In this document: positions 6,026-27,160 of the stretch, in pieces | Position numbering within the stretch: position 1 is the stretch's first letter | Layout: each line of letters opens with the position of its first letter | Assembly (NCBI GenBank): GCA_035968315.1 | Contig: JAVYIN010000001.1 | Span: forward strand, 1 to 51,738 | Length of the DNA: 51,738 bases | DNA from: Nitrospira sp. | GTDB taxonomy: Bacteria > Nitrospirota > Nitrospiria > Nitrospirales > Nitrospiraceae | Direction: 5' to 3' | Position numbers and translations under genes: made by a program | The notes under the pieces: generated by a model | The model's database searches: none | Seen by the model: only the letters and a program-made list of their open reading frames with translations | Told to the model about the DNA's origin: nothing

Positions 6026-7729
6026 CTAACATTTTTGTCCCGGATGATCCATGGCTAGCTGGGGCTCGAACCAGCGGCGAGGCAAAACATGTGTGCGTCC
6101 GAACCAAAGCGCCAAGGCAAAACGCATGAGGGAATACGTTCCACGAATCTCTATGCGCCGCAGTACATACGGCGGCGTGGCAGGATCATTCACGCCAAGA
6201 TGACTGCTGCAGGCTCCTGCGAAGCCTGCCCGTTCCACGGCCGCTTCACTCGTATTGTCGTGCCTCCCGTTGGGATAGGCGAAACTGAGAATCGGACCGC
6301 CCAGCTCGCGCTCAATCTGCACACGGGAGCCCTTGACCTCTTCTTCAATTTGAGGTAACGGCGCATCAGCAAGAGGAATATGGGTCTTCGTGTGCGACCC
6401 AACCGACATACCGCCATGCGTCATTTCCTTCAGATCTGACCATTTCAAGAGAGGACGCCCCCGAAGAAGCCCCTCGGTATCCCACATATTCCGGCCTCCC
6501 ACCATCTCCGTGACTACAAAGATCGTGGCGGGAAACCCATGCCGGCGCAGAATCGGATAGGCAATGGCTCGATTATCGGCATACCCGTCGTCGAAGGTAA
6601 TAACGATCGAACGGGGCGGTGGCAACCGATGCTCCCGATGATACTGCAGAAAGGCCTCCAAACTGAGCACAGGACGGCCCGTCCATTTGAGCCACGCCAT
6701 CTGCCGAGCAAAACGATTTCCCGGGATCACATAGAGGCTCGCGTGTTCCCCCGGATGTCCGCATGCGTGGTACATTAAAATGGTCGTGCCGAACACAAGG
6801 CGCCGCCACATCTCGCGTGGCACAACCGCGCGGACCCCTCGCCAATAGCAGTAGTCCCGGAGAAAGCGATACCACGCAAGCTTCCAGGATGGATGCTTCA
6901 AAGATGGGCCAATAATCGCAAGCGGGAGAAGGGGGCCGCTGAGAGCCAGCAAACAGCGGCGCAACAGGAGCGCGCAACGGCTCATATTGTTAAACGCTCC
7001 TAGCGCCATCGTTGAGAGCATGGGGGGATGACGGCGGTAGAGTTCGATGCTGGCTGCCCCGGCCCTCTGGATTCGGTCGGCAGTCTCGCGAAAACCTCCC
7101 TGATATTCCTGCGTGACAACCGCCTCAGGGATATAGGAAGGAACTAATCCGTCACCTGTGAGACGATAGGCCAACTCAATGCTTTCGCTGCCGGATAGGT
7201 CGAACGCGAAGCCTCCGGCCTTGAGGATCGCCTCACGAGGCAGCGAAAGGTTGCCGCTGCCGCAGTCGGCGTACGAAGGGCATTCCCCTTGGTCCAGCTT
7301 GGCATAACGATCCCGCCTCTCCTGGGCCACATACCTCGCCAATCCATCGGCGCCCTGCGGCAACGCCAGAAGAATCTGCCCTATTCCGATCACTCCTCCA
7401 CCTTGGCGTTGACGTTTCAGATGCTCGGCTACCAGACGGGGGTGTGCCATGACATCGTCGGCCAGGAAAAGGCAATAGCGCCCAGACGCCGCTTCCACAC
7501 CGCCATTAAGGGCCACGCCGAAGCCACGCCTATTCGCCCGGACGCCGCACAGCTTGTATGGAACGGCAAGATCGGACAGCGTATCATCAGTATCGTCGCT
7601 CGAACCCGAAAAAACTACGACGACTTCATAATCCTCCGCTGGCTGCGTCTGCCGGCAAAAACTTCCCAAACAGCCACGCAAGCGGTCGGCGTGGCCACCT
7701 GCCAGAATAATGATGCTCACTTCCGTCAT
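6026..7729 (-). CDS. Bifunctional GT2 glycosyltransferase - polysaccharide deacetylase fusion
   Basis: The 567-residue protein joins two domains. Residues 1 to about 290 are a GT2 domain (MTEVSIIILAGG, then LFLADDVMAHP with an acidic pair at 91-92). About residue 370 onward is a NodB-type deacetylase with motif 1 TFDDGY (378-383), motif 2 SHTKTH (445-450) and motif 3 FAYPNG. NodB deacetylases remove N-acetyl groups from GlcNAc-type residues using a metal bound by the Asp and two His. I chose the ATG at 7729 because it has an AAGGA just upstream and lies after the stop of the previous gene; the open frame continues upstream but would overlap that gene. One enzyme may add a sugar and trim its N-acetyl, which is an inference. 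Confidence 0.85.
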   Translation of the reverse strand: MTEVSIIILAGGHADRLRGCLGSFCRQTQPAEDYEVVVVFSGSSDDTDDTLSDLAVPYKLCGVRANRRGFGVALNGGVEAASGRYCLFLADDVMAHPRLVAEHLKRQRQGGGVIGIGQILLALPQGADGLARYVAQERRDRYAKLDQGECPSYADCGSGNLSLPREAILKAGGFAFDLSGSESIELAYRLTGDGLVPSYIPEAVVTQEYQGGFRETADRIQRAGAASIELYRRHPPMLSTMALGAFNNMSRCALLLRRCLLALSGPLLPLAIIGPSLKHPSWKLAWYRFLRDYCYWRGVRAVVPREMWRRLVFGTTILMYHACGHPGEHASLYVIPGNRFARQMAWLKWTGRPVLSLEAFLQYHREHRLPPPRSIVITFDDGYADNRAIAYPILRRHGFPATIFVVTEMVGGRNMWDTEGLLRGRPLLKWSDLKEMTHGGMSVGSHTKTHIPLADAPLPQIEEEVKGSRVQIERELGGPILSFAYPNGRHDNTSEAAVERAGFAGACSSHLGVNDPATPPYVLRRIEIRGTYSLMRFALALWFGRTHVLPRRWFEPQLAMDHPGQKC

Positions 7730-7739
7730 CACAGTTCCT

Positions 7740-8984
7740 TCAGGACTTCGCCGGCAGAGAAGCCACCTCGGAGCGCGGCAGCAGGCTCTCATATAGCGTT
7801 TCATAAGCCGCGATAGATCTATCCCAGCCCAGATTGCGTTGCGCCCACGCCCCGGCGCGATCCGCCAGTGCCGCACGTTCTTCCGGATGAGAAAGAAGCT
7901 GCACAACGGCGTCGGCAAATTGCTCATCGGTCTCAGCCAACACGATATCCCTTTGATGCACCACGTTGAGCCCCTCAACAGCCAGCCGCGACGCCACCAC
8001 CGCCTTACCGGCGGCAAGCGCTTCTACGACTTTGACCCGCATCCCGCCGCCCATGCGCAGCGGCACCACCACAACCGCCGCTCGATGGAGATAGGGAATC
8101 ACCTCCGGCACGCGGCCCGTGACCCGGATAGCGTCCGATGCGAATTCCCGCATTGAAGCGGTCGGTTGGTCTCCCACGATATGAAGCCTTGCCGCCGGAA
8201 CATGTGCCTGCACTCGTGGGAAAATGCCGCTCGCAAGGCGGATGGCGGCATCGCTATTGGGCGGATGTTTGAAATTCCCGACAAACAGCAGGTCCAACGG
8301 TTCCTCGCCTAGCCTGGTGCCCGGCAGATTCGAAAGCGTGGGGCCGAAAGGAACAACGGTAATGGGTGTGTCCGACACCACTTCTGACACCGCACGTCTG
8401 TCGCGCTCCGTAAACACGACGATGGCCTGGACGCGTTTGAGAATGGCACGTTCAAAACGCTCCCACGCGAGCATATCCCAATAGCGGATGGCTCGCATAA
8501 TGCCGTGGCTGAATTGCGACCGGTCTCTAGCCGCCGCGGTGCCCGGCTCATGCTGCGTCAGCACACAAGGCGCCGGGCAACCATCAAGCGCCAACAGGTA
8601 TTGGCCCATGACATGGAATTCAATTTGCACGATATCCGGCCGCCATGTTCGGGTGAGGGCTTTAACCTGAGCGCTGAATGCGGACACCGAGCACCCGGCA
8701 ACCCACAAAGGCCAGCCGCGAAGGAGCGACATACCTCGCGCCCATCCTGCGGCAAGTGAAAATCCTGGATTGGGCCGCATGACTTCCTGCGCCACTTCAC
8801 AACGGTTCTGCAACACTGGATCCAGCGGAGGGTCCACGGGGGCGCGAAGGTAGAGCAATGCAATACGATGGCGCACCGACAGCTGAGCAAGCAACTGCGC
8901 GGCGATTCGGCCTCCCCCGTCTGTGGCGTCCAAGCGAGGCGGGAAGGGAAGGAGACACAGAAGCCGTAACCGCTTATCGCTCAT
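7740..8984 (-). CDS. Family 4 glycosyltransferase (GT-B fold)
   Basis: The 414-residue protein has a GT4 N-terminus (LRLLCLLPFPPRLDATDGGG) and a C-terminal Rossmann half with LLFVGNFKHPPNSDAAIRL, IVGDQP and VVPLRMGGGMRVKVVEALAA. The last of these is the E-containing loop that binds the nucleotide-sugar phosphate in GT4 enzymes. The start at 8984 overlaps the stop of the upstream gene as ATGA (8981-8984), which argues for translational coupling and against the longer frame. Together with the phosphotransferase-like gene upstream it forms a tight pair. Donor sugar unknown. Confidence 0.88.
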   Translation of the reverse strand: MSDKRLRLLCLLPFPPRLDATDGGGRIAAQLLAQLSVRHRIALLYLRAPVDPPLDPVLQNRCEVAQEVMRPNPGFSLAAGWARGMSLLRGWPLWVAGCSVSAFSAQVKALTRTWRPDIVQIEFHVMGQYLLALDGCPAPCVLTQHEPGTAAARDRSQFSHGIMRAIRYWDMLAWERFERAILKRVQAIVVFTERDRRAVSEVVSDTPITVVPFGPTLSNLPGTRLGEEPLDLLFVGNFKHPPNSDAAIRLASGIFPRVQAHVPAARLHIVGDQPTASMREFASDAIRVTGRVPEVIPYLHRAAVVVVPLRMGGGMRVKVVEALAAGKAVVASRLAVEGLNVVHQRDIVLAETDEQFADAVVQLLSHPEERAALADRAGAWAQRNLGWDRSIAAYETLYESLLPRSEVASLPAKS

Positions 8985-20889: not shown

Positions 20890-21969
20890 TCAAGGATTTC
20901 GCCGGGCGGCCGGAATTGGCGCCACGCATAACGCCGCAAACCGGTTCACCATCGGCGCCAGACAGAGCGTGACGAGCACATAGGCTCCATATTCGGCGAT
21001 TCTGCCCGTATTGAGCCGGCTCTCGACCGCTCGCGGCATCGCCTCCTGCAAGATAACGGGAAAGGTTCGGAAAATGACGAGGTGGAGAAGAAATATTTCT
21101 AGGCTGTACCTCCCGCAAAAGAGAACACAGGCTCTGCCGCTGCTCAGAATCGACGAGCTGGGCACATACTCGTCTATCCGCTCATACAAGTATGCGATCA
21201 ACAGACAGAGCGGATAGGCCAACAACATAAACGGATACCACCAGAAGCCATAGCGCCACCTGGTGTCGGGCACAGTCAACGAGAGCACCAGACTCAGGCA
21301 CACAATACCCGACAAGCCAATGACGCCGTTGACCTTCGCGCTCTCGAACCACGGCTGATCCTGTTGATGCACATACACATACCCCGCATATATGCCAAGG
21401 ACGAACACGGGGAGTCGCAGCGTAAAGATGAGCAGATAGCTGAATTCGGTCGCCGTGATGGCCAGTGAAAGAAGCAGGGTGGCGAAGAGAGCCACTAGAA
21501 CATTTCCTGCGAGATGGCGGGTGCCCGTATTGAAACGGATCCAACGGACAAGAAACGGAAACAGCAGATAGCACGCAACGATGGCAGGAACAAACCAAAA
21601 GAATTTATCGTTATACAGGTAAAAATTCAGGCCTGTGGCCATGGCGGCCACCCGTACAATTGAAACCGTGCCGTTGGAGAACCACTCAATGCCGTAATAC
21701 AGCGCAACGGCAATCCAATAGGTCGGCAGGATCCGCATCAACCGGGCCGTATAAAACTCGCGGACCGTACACCCCTTGGACCAGCTGCAAAACAGTCCAA
21801 AGCCTGACAAGAAAAAGAAGAGATCCACGGCCCCATAGCCAAGATCTTTCACGAACTGCACAGGGAGGAACAACGCGCTCGGGAAATCGATGCGTGCATG
21901 AAACAGCACGACCCACAAAATCGCCATCCCCATGATCTCGGTCCGATAGCGGCTAATTTTCTGCAGCAC
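20890..21969 (-). CDS. Acyltransferase-3 membrane protein paired with SGNH hydrolases
   Basis: The 359-residue protein starts at a GTG after AAGGATCATC. It carries MAILWVVLFHARIDFP (conserved His) and VDLFFFLSGFGLFCSW, then about ten membrane segments. No SGNH domain is attached. The start overlaps the end of the frameshifted SGNH gene by 17 bases, so the two are translationally linked. In OafA-like systems acyl transfer needs an SGNH domain in the periplasm; here three separate SGNH genes are adjacent and may supply it. That pairing is an inference. Confidence 0.85.
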   Translation of the reverse strand: MLQKISRYRTEIMGMAILWVVLFHARIDFPSALFLPVQFVKDLGYGAVDLFFFLSGFGLFCSWSKGCTVREFYTARLMRILPTYWIAVALYYGIEWFSNGTVSIVRVAAMATGLNFYLYNDKFFWFVPAIVACYLLFPFLVRWIRFNTGTRHLAGNVLVALFATLLLSLAITATEFSYLLIFTLRLPVFVLGIYAGYVYVHQQDQPWFESAKVNGVIGLSGIVCLSLVLSLTVPDTRWRYGFWWYPFMLLAYPLCLLIAYLYERIDEYVPSSSILSSGRACVLFCGRYSLEIFLLHLVIFRTFPVILQEAMPRAVESRLNTGRIAEYGAYVLVTLCLAPMVNRFAALCVAPIPAARRNP

Positions 21970-23564
21970 GATGATCCTTCGCCGCGCTCATGACAACAGG
22001 CCGCAGCTTGGCAAAGATGGTTTCGGAAGCCAGCGCATGACCGGCCACTGACCAGTGCATATCATTTTGAAGGAAGAGGTCGGATGGCTTCGCTTGACGT
22101 GCAAAGTCTTTACGCAAATCAATACAAGGAACATCGTGCTCTACGCACCAGGCATGAAACAACGCCTGCGGCCGCCCAAAGTCATACAGCTCATCGCGAA
22201 TGGAAAAAGCCGCAATGAACTCTTCACGAAGCAATGGATCGACCTGAATTTGATCTGGGATCAAAATAACTATAAGTGGAATCTGGCGATCCCGCAGATA
22301 GCCGGCCATGCGTTCAAGACTTCCTTTCACATGCCTCCAACTGGCCTCAATATTCGACGGCCATTCTTTCAGGTATATTTCACTGCGCGACTCCAGCTCT
22401 TGGAGATACCATTCCCGGCTTCTACCGAGGGGAGAGGTCTCCTGGCTGGTACGGGGGGGGGGGCGTACCCGCCAAGGCCTGCTTCACCCGCAACGCTCCC
22501 ACAGTCAGCACGTAATTGACATCATGATAGAGAAACCACCTTTCAGGCCCAACATGGTCATGCACCCAGTTCCCGTTCGCATGCACATAATAGCTTTGCC
22601 CGGCGACCATCATGATCGGTTGCTCGACCTGAGCACCGCGCCGCCGGATGATGTCGTTTCCGACAAATACATTTAGCAGCACTGCATCTGGCCGAAACTG
22701 CACGCCGTATGCTTGCAGTAAATGGAACTCCTCAGGAGGCGACCAGCCCGGCACACCTAGGTTAATAATCTCGGCATTCAGCGCCTCACGCTGCAACAAG
22801 GTCTCCATCACTGCTACAAAACCTTCTTCGTACCGAACACCGCTCCCCCAGACAAAGGAATCCCCTAACGCCACGAGACGAAGATGATGATCGGAATTCT
22901 CTATAGTCCGTTCTCGATCTTTGAATCCTTGTGAGTTGGAATAGCGAATGGAGCCCAACACTTCCATATGCGGGGTCAGTTCTGCAGGCGTCTGCTTATT
23001 TCCAAACAATCCTGCCTTGGCAAGAAAAGGATCTGCCAGGCGCATGATCCCTTCACCGCACAAGGCCAGCACGACAACATTAACCAGTGCGACCTTTGCC
23101 AAACCAAACACTCTTGAATTGAGAAATCTCTGCAACGAAAGCGGGGCCAGCAAAACCCAGCCACCCCACATACTCGCGAGCACCAATGCCAAGATGATGA
23201 TCTCTGTGTGGCGCCCGTGAGGAGGAAGCGGGTAAAACACAAATCCAAAGTACAGCGCCAGCACCGCATACAACAGCCCATACCCCATCGACCAGGATGC
23301 GACGATGGTGCGATGCTGAACATTGCGTTGAATACGCACGGCGGACAGCAACAACACCAGGCCCGACAAAACCGCGACACCTCCCAAGAATATAAACTTG
23401 CCTGTCTCCCGTGGAAAAGCAAGAGCCCCGTTCGTCGGAGGCCGCAGAAATTCTAGGAGGATATCGCACGCCAACAATGCGCTGGCCACACTGCCTGCGA
23501 AACACACGGTCGAAATCAAGTTCACGGACCAATGACCTGGAGCAAGCCGAGCTGTTCGCGTCAC
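21953..23564 (-). pseudogene. SGNH-hydrolase-like gene split by a frameshift at a C11 tract
   Basis: The first part (23564 down to 22422, 380 residues, GTG start after GAGGAAAAATTC) has about five N-terminal hydrophobic helices, then ALGDSFVWGSG (catalytic Ser block) and VFVGNDIIRR (Asn block). It then hits a run of 11 C (coding strand) and soon a stop. In the next reading frame the protein continues uninterrupted from the tract to 21953, including FLQNDMHWSVAGH, the Asp...His block. Removing one C joins the frames into about 536 residues with all catalytic blocks in order. So this is one SGNH gene out of frame: phase-variable, a real mutation, or a sequencing error at the homopolymer. The downstream acyltransferase overlaps its end. 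Confidence 0.8.
22448..22469. repeat. G11/C11 homopolymer flanked by 6-base inverted repeats
   Basis: On the plus strand 22453-22463 are eleven G. GGTACG at 22448-22453 and CGTACC at 22464-22469 form an inverted repeat around the run. Runs of this length slip during replication and are also hard to sequence. It sits exactly where the SGNH reading frame breaks. Confidence 0.85.
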
Positions 23565-23574
23565 GAATTTTTCC

Positions 23575-24738
23575 TCATCGATCTGCTCGATTAAAGGGTT
23601 TCTCCTCTACCATACCAACCGGCTTGAACCAGCCCGCCTGCTCCAAGGCATCAAACCAGATTTGCGCCATGAGCTGCTCTCCCTTGGCGGTGAAGTGGCA
23701 CCAGTCCGTATGAAACTCCGGCGTGGGGGGAACCTGTTTGGCCGGTTCAGCCAACGGAAGGCCTTCGGCGCGAGCAAGGCTGCGGACCATGTCATTGTAG
23801 AGCGGGAAGCTTCGGCGAAGCCCCTGCGGACTCAGATTGTCAAACCACCGCCCTACAGCCGGCACACCGAGGGCCGTTTCGTCGGCATTGTACTGTTCTG
23901 GCTTCCCCGCCTCATCGAGGCCATGAGAAAAGGTCCCGATGGCGACCTGCACCTTCGCGCGGCGGGCTTCGGCAATGAGGCCTTGCAGATTCTGCTCCAG
24001 CATCTTGAGTGCGGCCGCATCGACGTCGTCCCGCTTGACTTTGGAAGACCGACTGACAAGGTTGATCCGCGACCGGATTTCCATCAGCACATACGAGTGA
24101 TCGACCATCCGGTTATACCAGCCAGGCGCGGAAATGCTTTCCCCTCGCGCGTATATCAGTTTGGTTTGAAGATCCGGCACCCATGACCAATTCAGATCGT
24201 TGTTCCCGTGATAGATCAGAATCGCGTCCGGCTCCAGATGGGACACACGGAGCATAAAGTTAATGCGCTGCTCGATGGACGTATATCCGGGCACACCGGC
24301 GTTCACAACCTCAAATGTCCGGTCCGGATAGGCGGCCCGCAATTTCGCTTCCAGCAGCGCCGGCCAGGCCTCGTCGTGCGACCGCACCCCCTTCCAGCCA
24401 AACGTGGTGGACTCGCCTAACGCGAAGATGCGAAAGACGCCTTTCGGTTTCGGCATGGCAATCTCGGGGCCGCGAAACCCCAAACTGTTGACTTCGACGC
24501 GAAAGGGGCCGGACTGAAACTGCAAGCCTGGAGGCAGTGCTGTCCGCAAAAATGGATTGCCCACAATATAGCCGACCGCCCGGCGGGGCATGTACCCCGC
24601 GTATTGCTCCAGCAACCGGCCGGCAACTTCCCCCAAGGTCAAGACGACGACAGCAGGAATGGCAAGGGCCACGGCCCGCTTCCACATCGGCCATGCCGCG
24701 AAGCGCGTCCGCATGTCTTGCCCGTCCTCACGCTCCAT
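23575..24738 (-). CDS. SGNH/GDSL hydrolase-like protein with N-terminal membrane anchor
   Basis: The 387-residue protein has one N-terminal hydrophobic helix (AVALAIPAVVVLTLGEVAGR). After NSLGFRGPEI it has FRIFALGESTTFGWKG (GES in place of GDS, with the nucleophile Ser), AGVPGYTSIEQR, ILIYHGNNDLNWSW (Asn block) and FHTDWCHFTAKGEQ (Asp..His block). It therefore keeps the catalytic set and is likely anchored with its active domain in the periplasm. The ATG at 24738 follows AGAGG; an upstream GTG is less likely. It is the second of three tandem SGNH genes and probably acts on O-acyl groups of the glycan. Confidence 0.83.
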   Translation of the reverse strand: MEREDGQDMRTRFAAWPMWKRAVALAIPAVVVLTLGEVAGRLLEQYAGYMPRRAVGYIVGNPFLRTALPPGLQFQSGPFRVEVNSLGFRGPEIAMPKPKGVFRIFALGESTTFGWKGVRSHDEAWPALLEAKLRAAYPDRTFEVVNAGVPGYTSIEQRINFMLRVSHLEPDAILIYHGNNDLNWSWVPDLQTKLIYARGESISAPGWYNRMVDHSYVLMEIRSRINLVSRSSKVKRDDVDAAALKMLEQNLQGLIAEARRAKVQVAIGTFSHGLDEAGKPEQYNADETALGVPAVGRWFDNLSPQGLRRSFPLYNDMVRSLARAEGLPLAEPAKQVPPTPEFHTDWCHFTAKGEQLMAQIWFDALEQAGWFKPVGMVEEKPFNRADR

Positions 24739-24792
24739 CAATCCCACCTCTCACACCTCCGGCATCGCTCAAAATATGCGGCCCCCTCTTCT

Positions 24793-25917
24793 TTACGGAT
24801 TCCTCACCGGCACAGTATCGCGGGGAAACCGTTTCGCCATCTCTTCCGCCGCGACGCGATGAGCCAACGCATTCCAATGCGAATCGTTTTTAAACCGATA
24901 TATCGGCTCGCCACCAGACCCGGCATCGAGTAAAGACAAAATATCTATACACATGACATTCTTTTCTCTGCACCAAACCAACACACGCTCGTTGACCTTC
25001 TTCTGTGCAGCAGAAAATGTTCCATCTGCCGCTTGACCTGCTATTGGCACGATCACTAGCCGTGCCATTTTTTCTTGCGTAAAGACCCGAAGCACCTCAA
25101 GCTCATCGAGCAATAATTGGAGATGGCCATCATTCGCCACTGCTGACGGCTCAGGCTGAGCAACCGGCAATCCGGCTCCGACATGGGAGGCCTCCCCCCA
25201 CGCTTTATACAGTCCCTTCCAAAGATAGGAGCCGAAACAACAATGCTCATCAAACCAAAAGTCCATCCCTTTCATCCATGGCCGATACATTGGCGAAAAT
25301 AGATAGCCTTCTGTGGTTGCGCGAAGGTGGGGAAGAGAGCTTTCGCGCACAAGAATCCCATTGAACAGAACATAGGGATCACGAAGCCTATCGATAGCCG
25401 CTACTGCAACCCCGACCATCAGAACTCGAGGGTGCAATTCATCAAACTCGCTCATGGCAAATTGCCTTATTTGACGCATGCTGTAGCCCGAAACACCGGC
25501 ATTGACGACCAACGGGCCAGATCCATTGGCCTGGCCTGCATTAAGGCTACGTTCCAATTGAGCAGGCCAGGCTTGTTCATATTGAACTCCCCATCCAACA
25601 GTTAGAGAATCCCCGACCGCTAATACAATTGGCCTAGACCGATCCAGTGGATTTCGAGACTCTCCGACTCGCAATCCTTGCTCATTGGTCTTCACGATTA
25701 TGGTAAAGTCATCTCTGCTCATCGTCCCGGTAAAGTTCTGAGAATAAGTATAGCCACGTACAGGATGTTCAATCCATAATCCTGGCAGATCATCCGACCC
25801 ACGAGCGACAAACCCCAGTCGTGGCAATAGCAGCCGACAAGCGATCTCAGCCAATGCAAACGATAACACCAATGAAACAATCGCAATGATCGCATTAAAT
25901 TTTGTTCGGCGAGACAT
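24793..25917 (-). CDS. SGNH hydrolase-like protein with N-terminal membrane anchor
   Basis: The 374-residue protein begins MSRRTKFNAIIAIVSLVLSF, a single membrane anchor. It continues with a RGYTYSQN region, VLAVGDSLTVGWGVQYEQAW (GDS Ser block), NAGVSGYSMRQI and, near the end, IYRFKNDSHWNALAHRVAAE (Asp..His block, DSHW). The Asn block is less clear (LMVGVAVAAIDRL), so block III may be altered. The ATG at 25917 has AAGGAATTGAGC ahead of it and overlaps the GT4 gene by 23 bases. It is a paralogue of the two SGNH genes downstream. Base composition looks more AT-rich than the GT4 gene next to it. Confidence 0.8.
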   Translation of the reverse strand: MSRRTKFNAIIAIVSLVLSFALAEIACRLLLPRLGFVARGSDDLPGLWIEHPVRGYTYSQNFTGTMSRDDFTIIVKTNEQGLRVGESRNPLDRSRPIVLAVGDSLTVGWGVQYEQAWPAQLERSLNAGQANGSGPLVVNAGVSGYSMRQIRQFAMSEFDELHPRVLMVGVAVAAIDRLRDPYVLFNGILVRESSLPHLRATTEGYLFSPMYRPWMKGMDFWFDEHCCFGSYLWKGLYKAWGEASHVGAGLPVAQPEPSAVANDGHLQLLLDELEVLRVFTQEKMARLVIVPIAGQAADGTFSAAQKKVNERVLVWCREKNVMCIDILSLLDAGSGGEPIYRFKNDSHWNALAHRVAAEEMAKRFPRDTVPVRNP

Positions 25918-27160
25918 GCTCAATTCCTTTCTGCCGACTAATCCGGTCAATTAGCGCGAGATACCGGTCGAGATGCTGCTCCGCGGTCCACTCCTGCCGA
26001 TAGGCCTCGTACCCTCTGGCGCCCAATTCCGCTCTCCGCGCAGGATTCGCGCGCAGCGATTCGATCGCCGCGCCCAGCTCCCGGCTGTTCCGATAGAGCA
26101 GCCCCCCCCCGCTCATCGTCACCAGCTCCGACAAGGCGCCGATGTCACGCGCAATCACAGGCGTCTTCAAGGAGAAGGCTTCCGCGACCACCTGCCCGAA
26201 GGTCTCGTAGCAGAGCGACGGCACGACCACCGCCGCCGCACCGGTATACAATTGCCGCAACCGCTCAAACGGCAGGGAGCCAAGAAACTTCACGCGCGGA
26301 CTGTCTTGGGCCAGGCGTTTCAGCTCGGCCTCATACTGACCGGCCCCTGCCACCCAAAGATCGGCCCGGTCCTGCTGTGTAAAGAAGGGAATCACCTCTT
26401 GCAGACCCTTCAGCTTTTCCAACCGCCCGACATAGAGGAAATAGGGCCGTTCCCCGCTCATTGGCTGCATGGGTAGGGAGTCAACGGGCTGGGTGTTGAC
26501 CGGCTGTGAGGGGATGAACATCGGAATCACGGTCTTTTCGACCGTTGCGCCCATATGCCGATGGGCATCGGACGCGAATTGGCTGGGCGAGATCACGGCA
26601 TCGAGATGCCGGAGCGCCCGATCCAGCATGCTCGTATAGCGCCAGAGCTGCGGAGGCCGCCGATAGGACAGCTGGCAGGTCAGGCAACTCGGTTTCGCAC
26701 AGGCTTCCTGGTTGAACTTAAACAGCACATGCGTCGGGCACAGCAGCCAATACTCATGCGTCGTGTAGAGCTTGATGGCCCGGCCATATTCGAAGACTTT
26801 CGGCCCCCCCACCAGCGAGACATTGTGGTAATGGATCACGTCGAACCGGCCTTCGCCGAGAATCCGCTTAATCTTTCCGGCCTTCAAACCGGGAATGCCC
26901 AACTGCTGGGTCAGGAGCGGCGACAGAATGCCGGCTTTGCTTTTGAGGCTGTGCAGCGTGATGCGGGGATGGCTTGGCCACTCGCCGGCCGGCTCCGCGG
27001 GATGCTGCGCATAATAGGCGTCGCGGCAATGAATCACGTCCACGGAATGGCCCCGCTCAGCCAGCAGGTTGGAGAGACGATACACAAACATGCCGTCCCC
27101 CCCAAAACTATAGGGAGGATAGAATGTGGTGACCATGCAAAACCGCAGGGACGGCCCCAT
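25895..27160 (-). CDS. Family 4 glycosyltransferase with a Cys-rich insert
   Basis: The 421-residue protein starts RFCMVTTFYPPYSFGGDGMF and has a Cys-rich loop after the acceptor half (EACAKPSCLTCQ). The C-terminal half has YFLYVGRLEKLKGLQEVIPF, VKFLGSLPFERL, AAVVVPSLCYETFGQVVAEA (the PS..E.FG motif) and VIARDIGALSEL. These are the standard GT4 donor-binding features. The start overlaps the upstream GT4 stop as TGATG at 27160. A C9 run at 26102-26110 lies in its coding region and is in frame (Gly-Gly-Gly). Donor unknown. Confidence 0.9.
   Translation of the reverse strand: MGPSLRFCMVTTFYPPYSFGGDGMFVYRLSNLLAERGHSVDVIHCRDAYYAQHPAEPAGEWPSHPRITLHSLKSKAGILSPLLTQQLGIPGLKAGKIKRILGEGRFDVIHYHNVSLVGGPKVFEYGRAIKLYTTHEYWLLCPTHVLFKFNQEACAKPSCLTCQLSYRRPPQLWRYTSMLDRALRHLDAVISPSQFASDAHRHMGATVEKTVIPMFIPSQPVNTQPVDSLPMQPMSGERPYFLYVGRLEKLKGLQEVIPFFTQQDRADLWVAGAGQYEAELKRLAQDSPRVKFLGSLPFERLRQLYTGAAAVVVPSLCYETFGQVVAEAFSLKTPVIARDIGALSELVTMSGGGLLYRNSRELGAAIESLRANPARRAELGARGYEAYRQEWTAEQHLDRYLALIDRISRQKGIEHVSPNKI

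Follow-up and report, generated by a model that had tools for sequence, protein, structure and literature searches.

An SGNH hydrolase gene broken at a C11 tract in a polysaccharide locus of Nitrospira: a candidate phase-variable gene

Does the poly-C run at which a glycan-modification gene of a nitrifying Nitrospira is broken work as a switch, or is the break a base-counting error or a plain loss of the gene? Genes for glycan modification form a class that is often phase variable. The gene in question lies in a window of 51,738 nucleotides, the whole stretch of DNA that was analysed (contig JAVYIN010000001.1 of assembly GCA_035968315.1). An initial annotation of the window proposed that slipped-strand mispairing at the run could turn an O-acyl decoration of the glycan on and off. 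Our analysis upholds the observations on which this proposal was built, namely an SGNH gene that loses its frame at a C tract in a glycan-rich setting; the tract itself is absent from the homologues. No papers on phase variation in Nitrospira were found in the literature searched.

Results

An SGNH gene in two frames. The gene, on the minus strand, changes reading frame precisely where the C11 run lies (Table 1). As first described, the SGNH-family Ser (GDS) and Asn (GND) blocks share one frame, which reaches a stop codon 31 nt beyond the tract, and the Asp-x-x-His block (NDMHW) follows in the next frame and is missing from the truncated product. No stop interrupts this second frame between the tract and 21953, and its first start codon comes only at 22330. 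The earlier estimate of about 536 residues also proves right: the gene measures 1612 nt with C11, and removal of one C leaves 536 codons plus a stop. By alignment through the junction, one base thus separates a truncated product of 380 amino acids from a full-length one of 536.

Both halves, one before and one after the tract, align to a single uninterrupted orthologue. The 5′ part matches Pfam Lipase_GDSL_2 (PF13472; E 1.3e-6) with 29.5 bits, which is 3.4 bits under the 32.9 cut-off and covers profile positions 1-82 of 178 only, and the 3′ part matches ALGX above the cut-off (E 2.6e-7). About five membrane helices are predicted to precede the SGNH blocks in the 5′ part, from an AlphaFold model of an orthologue that is itself modest (pLDDT 63) and has low confidence at residues 308-380, the linker region. 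The product is probably a membrane-anchored enzyme that attaches O-acyl groups to an exported glycan or takes them off; from its sequence we infer a putative esterase or acyltransferase activity. GC content by codon position in the 3′ part matches that of the 5′ part, so that coding composition is retained, and apart from the tract the gene has no second lesion and keeps its catalytic blocks in both halves. A stop check of the other 39 genes called in the window showed no break, which leaves this as the one broken gene of 40.

Table 1. Features at and around the broken SGNH gene (window coordinates)
Feature	Coordinates	Strand	Basis or remark
Acyltransferase-3 (PF01757) gene	20890..21969	-	Pfam; overlaps SGNH 3′ end by 17 nt
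SGNH gene, 3′ part, other frame	21953..22465	-	Translation; AlgX/AlgJ-like half with Asp-His block (NDMHW)
SGNH gene, 5′ part	22422..23564	-	ORF, GTG start, 380 aa; holds Ser (GDS) and Asn (GND) blocks
Inverted repeat TGGCTGGTACG / CGTACCCGCCA, tract as loop	22443..22474	.	10/11 complementary
C11 tract, site of the frame break	22453..22463	-	G11 on + strand; run count and alignment
Second SGNH/GDSL gene, intact, directly upstream	23575..24747	-	Pfam
Third SGNH gene, intact	24793..25950	-	Lipase_GDSL_2 over cut-off, weak ALGX match

Glycan locus and neighboring genes. Around the break lies a polysaccharide gene cluster that includes many glycosyltransferases, a flippase, deacetylases and two acyltransferase-3 genes; three SGNH genes are consecutive in it, and one of the acyltransferase-3 genes comes after them. 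Because acyltransferase-3 proteins can act with separate SGNH partners (PMC9558356), a role of the locus in O-acylation would be reasonable. The initial annotation had further suggested that the break could affect the overlapping acyltransferase gene by coupling. This idea finds little support, since a Shine-Dalgarno-like GAAGGA of its own precedes the GTG of that gene by 5 nt, and since the next large gene in three relatives is a carbamoyltransferase gene and not an acyltransferase gene. In 174 other genomes of the family, no match to the acyltransferase-3 gene reached E 1e-30, so this gene may have arrived recently.

Two side observations concern gene content. The SGNH orthologues of the three relatives lie close to the carbamoyltransferase gene (Carbam_trans_N and Carbam_trans_C), which suggests that the two form a conserved pair for glycan modification in genomes other than this one. 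Elsewhere in the window, an ORF of 663 amino acids at 6026-8017 scores as a fusion of a family 2 glycosyltransferase (first half) and a polysaccharide deacetylase (second half).

Relatives of the broken gene. Fourteen intact copies were collected from other Nitrospirota genomes, each a single frame with both catalytic regions; some of the 14 are possibly paralogues, at about 35% identity, and the relatives that bear names are Nitrospira and Nitrospirae metagenome-assembled genomes. The comparison proposed at the outset, of intact homologues and their C-run lengths, thus gives a divided answer: intact single-frame versions exist, and the C run is in none of them. No C or G run in these copies exceeds 7, the longest being 7 and none lying in the linker, and no tract conserved with varying length was found among them. 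Of the pattern held beforehand to make phase variation unlikely, fixed homologues without a C run, half is thereby found, namely intact copies without the run. Lineage-specific tracts can be contingency loci, so that run-free homologues lower the claim of a switch without excluding it.

The 5′ part shares 43-47% identity with intact orthologues and the C half 34-37%, compared with 31-58% in the C half among the orthologues themselves, one close pair (85%) being left out. Because the C half has kept its Asp-His block, its identity and its coding composition, the break should be young, reversible or not real. The gene was not found in 78 other genomes of its own genus, which leaves no near species for comparison, and no relatives were found among viral contigs. 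In a sister genome, G228, the same gene is a pseudogene with an internal TAG and a frameshift and no homopolymer; hence, loss of this gene happens without any switch.

Position, rarity and origin of the tract. No other C/G run in the window is as long as C11, and within the SGNH reading frame the tract exceeds the G/C instability cut-off of 7 that was applied to phase-variable genes of Campylobacter (PMC6321876). In the genome (3.11 Mb), 17 C/G runs reach at least 9 bases, five at least 10 and three at least 11; for the last class, 0.4 to 4.6 are expected, depending on the background model (all models fitted on the window). The number of such runs is ordinary and within chance; what is notable is the placement of this one inside a gene, at the break. 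It is the only C run of at least 10 inside a clear gene of the genome; one C10 run lies ahead of a porin gene or just at its start. Since the other runs of at least 10 lie outside clear genes, nothing in this genome points to a set of poly-C switches. Among other repeats in the window, none of note is capable of switching, and no other gene of the window has a comparable repeat.

Two further ideas were discarded. A genus-wide system of poly-C switches is rejected on the sample seen, because most runs of C10 or more in this genome, and most of the sampled runs of C11 or more in other species, lie outside clear genes. A mis-binned contig is unsupported (GC 0.571 versus 0.580; tetranucleotide correlation with the rest of the genome 0.90-0.93, where two samples of that rest correlate at 0.96). 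Separately, draft genomes of the same genus contain C runs of 17, 18 and 53, the first bordered by Ns and the second close to the end of a contig; these are probably sequencing or assembly artefacts.

The tract falls in the most variable, gap-rich stretch of the family alignment, which separates the GND half from the Asp-His half. CCC makes up 24% of the proline codons here, and three consecutive CCC would arise from codon choice alone with a chance of only about 1.4%, which points to growth of the tract by slippage.

An inverted repeat around the tract. The GGTACG/CGTACC repeats reported to bracket the run are real and larger than claimed: the arms are 11 nt long, TGGCTGGTACG at 22443-22453 and CGTACCCGCCA at 22464-22474, with 10 of 11 positions complementary, and the left arm includes one G of the run. 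Such complementarity arose in 16 of 200,000 trials with random flanks (8e-5). No comparable inverted repeat occurs at the 16 other C9-C12 tracts of the genome or at any other C/G run of at least 4 in the window (311 runs in all). The flanking repeat is thus beyond chance and an unexpected addition to the observation. The hairpin appears in the predicted fold of the RNA and of the opposite DNA strand; the overall fold energy is no better than that of shuffles (z -1.1).

Discussion

We tentatively favor the reading that the variable linker acquired a tract prone to slippage, which put the gene out of frame and made it, in principle, switchable. The poly-C tract would have grown by slippage in the poorly conserved stretch between the two halves of the enzyme; replication slippage at C11, possibly aided by the bracketing hairpin, would then shift its length by one base. 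In the assembled, out-of-frame state, the Asp-His half and with it the enzyme would be off, and identical slippage could put the frame back. Slippage would be the simplest cause of the break, and the break may be reversible; with no other damage to either half, a return to frame would take only slippage, and the gene is therefore a candidate phase-variable locus. It is called a candidate only, since spontaneous reversion is required before a locus is termed phase variable (PMC11868660). The proposed mechanism is of an established kind.

Comparison with known systems shows where the likeness ends. (i) The poly-G/C glycan genes of Campylobacter and Neisseria likewise have a mononucleotide C/G run of more than 7 in a glycan-modification gene, the frame of which is lost by one unit. 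However, those systems comprise dozens of loci, whereas the Nitrospira genome has one, with a single length seen, a tract that is not conserved and mismatch repair genes present; moreover, its run is of C on the coding strand, an orientation that accounts for 5% of the poly-G/C tracts in Campylobacter genes (PMC6321876). (ii) The poly-A loci wbeL and manA of Vibrio cholerae O1 share the homopolymer frameshift, the surface-polysaccharide gene and the aquatic life, but manA reversion has been demonstrated and the tracts are conserved between strains (PMC3441752), whereas the Nitrospira locus is known from one assembled tract length. (iii) The AlgX/AlgJ and PatB-type SGNH acetylation proteins, which work with a membrane acyltransferase, resemble our protein in the SGNH blocks, the ALGX-scored C half and the adjoining acyltransferase-3 gene; they differ in that the Nitrospira protein has N-terminal membrane helices, three relatives have the carbamoyltransferase gene next, and the activity is putative.

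A base-count error and a plain recent loss account for the data nearly as well as a slippage switch does, and singleton frameshifts are more often indels or sequencing errors (PMC3711429). According to the first of these, which we regard as somewhat unlikely, the consensus is one base off and the cells carry an in-frame tract and an intact gene. The coincidence of the only broken gene of the window with its longest C/G run would be explained in this way, as would the intactness of all orthologues save one, given that bases are hardest to count in long runs and that this one sits inside a hairpin. Against an error stand the C9 runs within the nitrite/sulphite reductase and glycosyltransferase genes, which keep their frames open, and the high estimated quality of the genome (99.97% complete).

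A recent slippage indel that inactivated the gene for good would instead make it a young pseudogene with no useful switching, which is unlikely. The broken G228 copy indicates that loss is tolerated in the family, and the two intact SGNH genes that adjoin the broken one fit this explanation, as do the intact mutS and mutL genes, which argue for a low slippage rate; mismatch repair lowers slippage without abolishing it. A fixed loss is harder to square with catalytic blocks kept in both halves and with no second lesion beyond the tract.

At the other extreme, the hairpin-bracketed poly-C might have evolved as a switch of glycan O-acylation in this free-living nitrifier. Phages that put the surface polysaccharide under pressure would maintain it, and the inverted repeat would make a lone tract slip more often even though mismatch repair is intact; we consider this scenario improbable.

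Least plausible, and very doubtful, is a slip of RNA polymerase or ribosome at the run that yields some full-length enzyme by the needed +1 shift at CCC-C: that sequence is known to be +1 prone (up to 1% next to a start codon in E. coli; PMC4519876), and the run is bracketed by a hairpin, but the stop lies 31 nt on and not directly after the run, the fold is no better than that of shuffles, and no homologue has a run or frame break at the same place, where programmed recoding would be expected to be conserved. The closest parallel is tssM1 of Citrobacter rodentium, also with an 11-base homopolymer, a nearby stop (28 nt on) and a frame lost by one base, which transcriptional slippage restores at about 20% (PMC4256274); there, however, the run is of A, whereas the SGNH run is of C and its slippage putative.

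The favored slippage reading and its rivals differ in what they mean for the group. If the tract length is not variable, the locus serves as a caution: in a draft genome, a singleton frameshift at a long C run is weak evidence of a switch. If tract lengths do vary in nature, this would be, to our knowledge, the first phase-variable glycan gene in nitrifying Nitrospirota, none having been found in the literature searched, and it would suggest that phages or grazers exert pressure on the Nitrospirota matrix.
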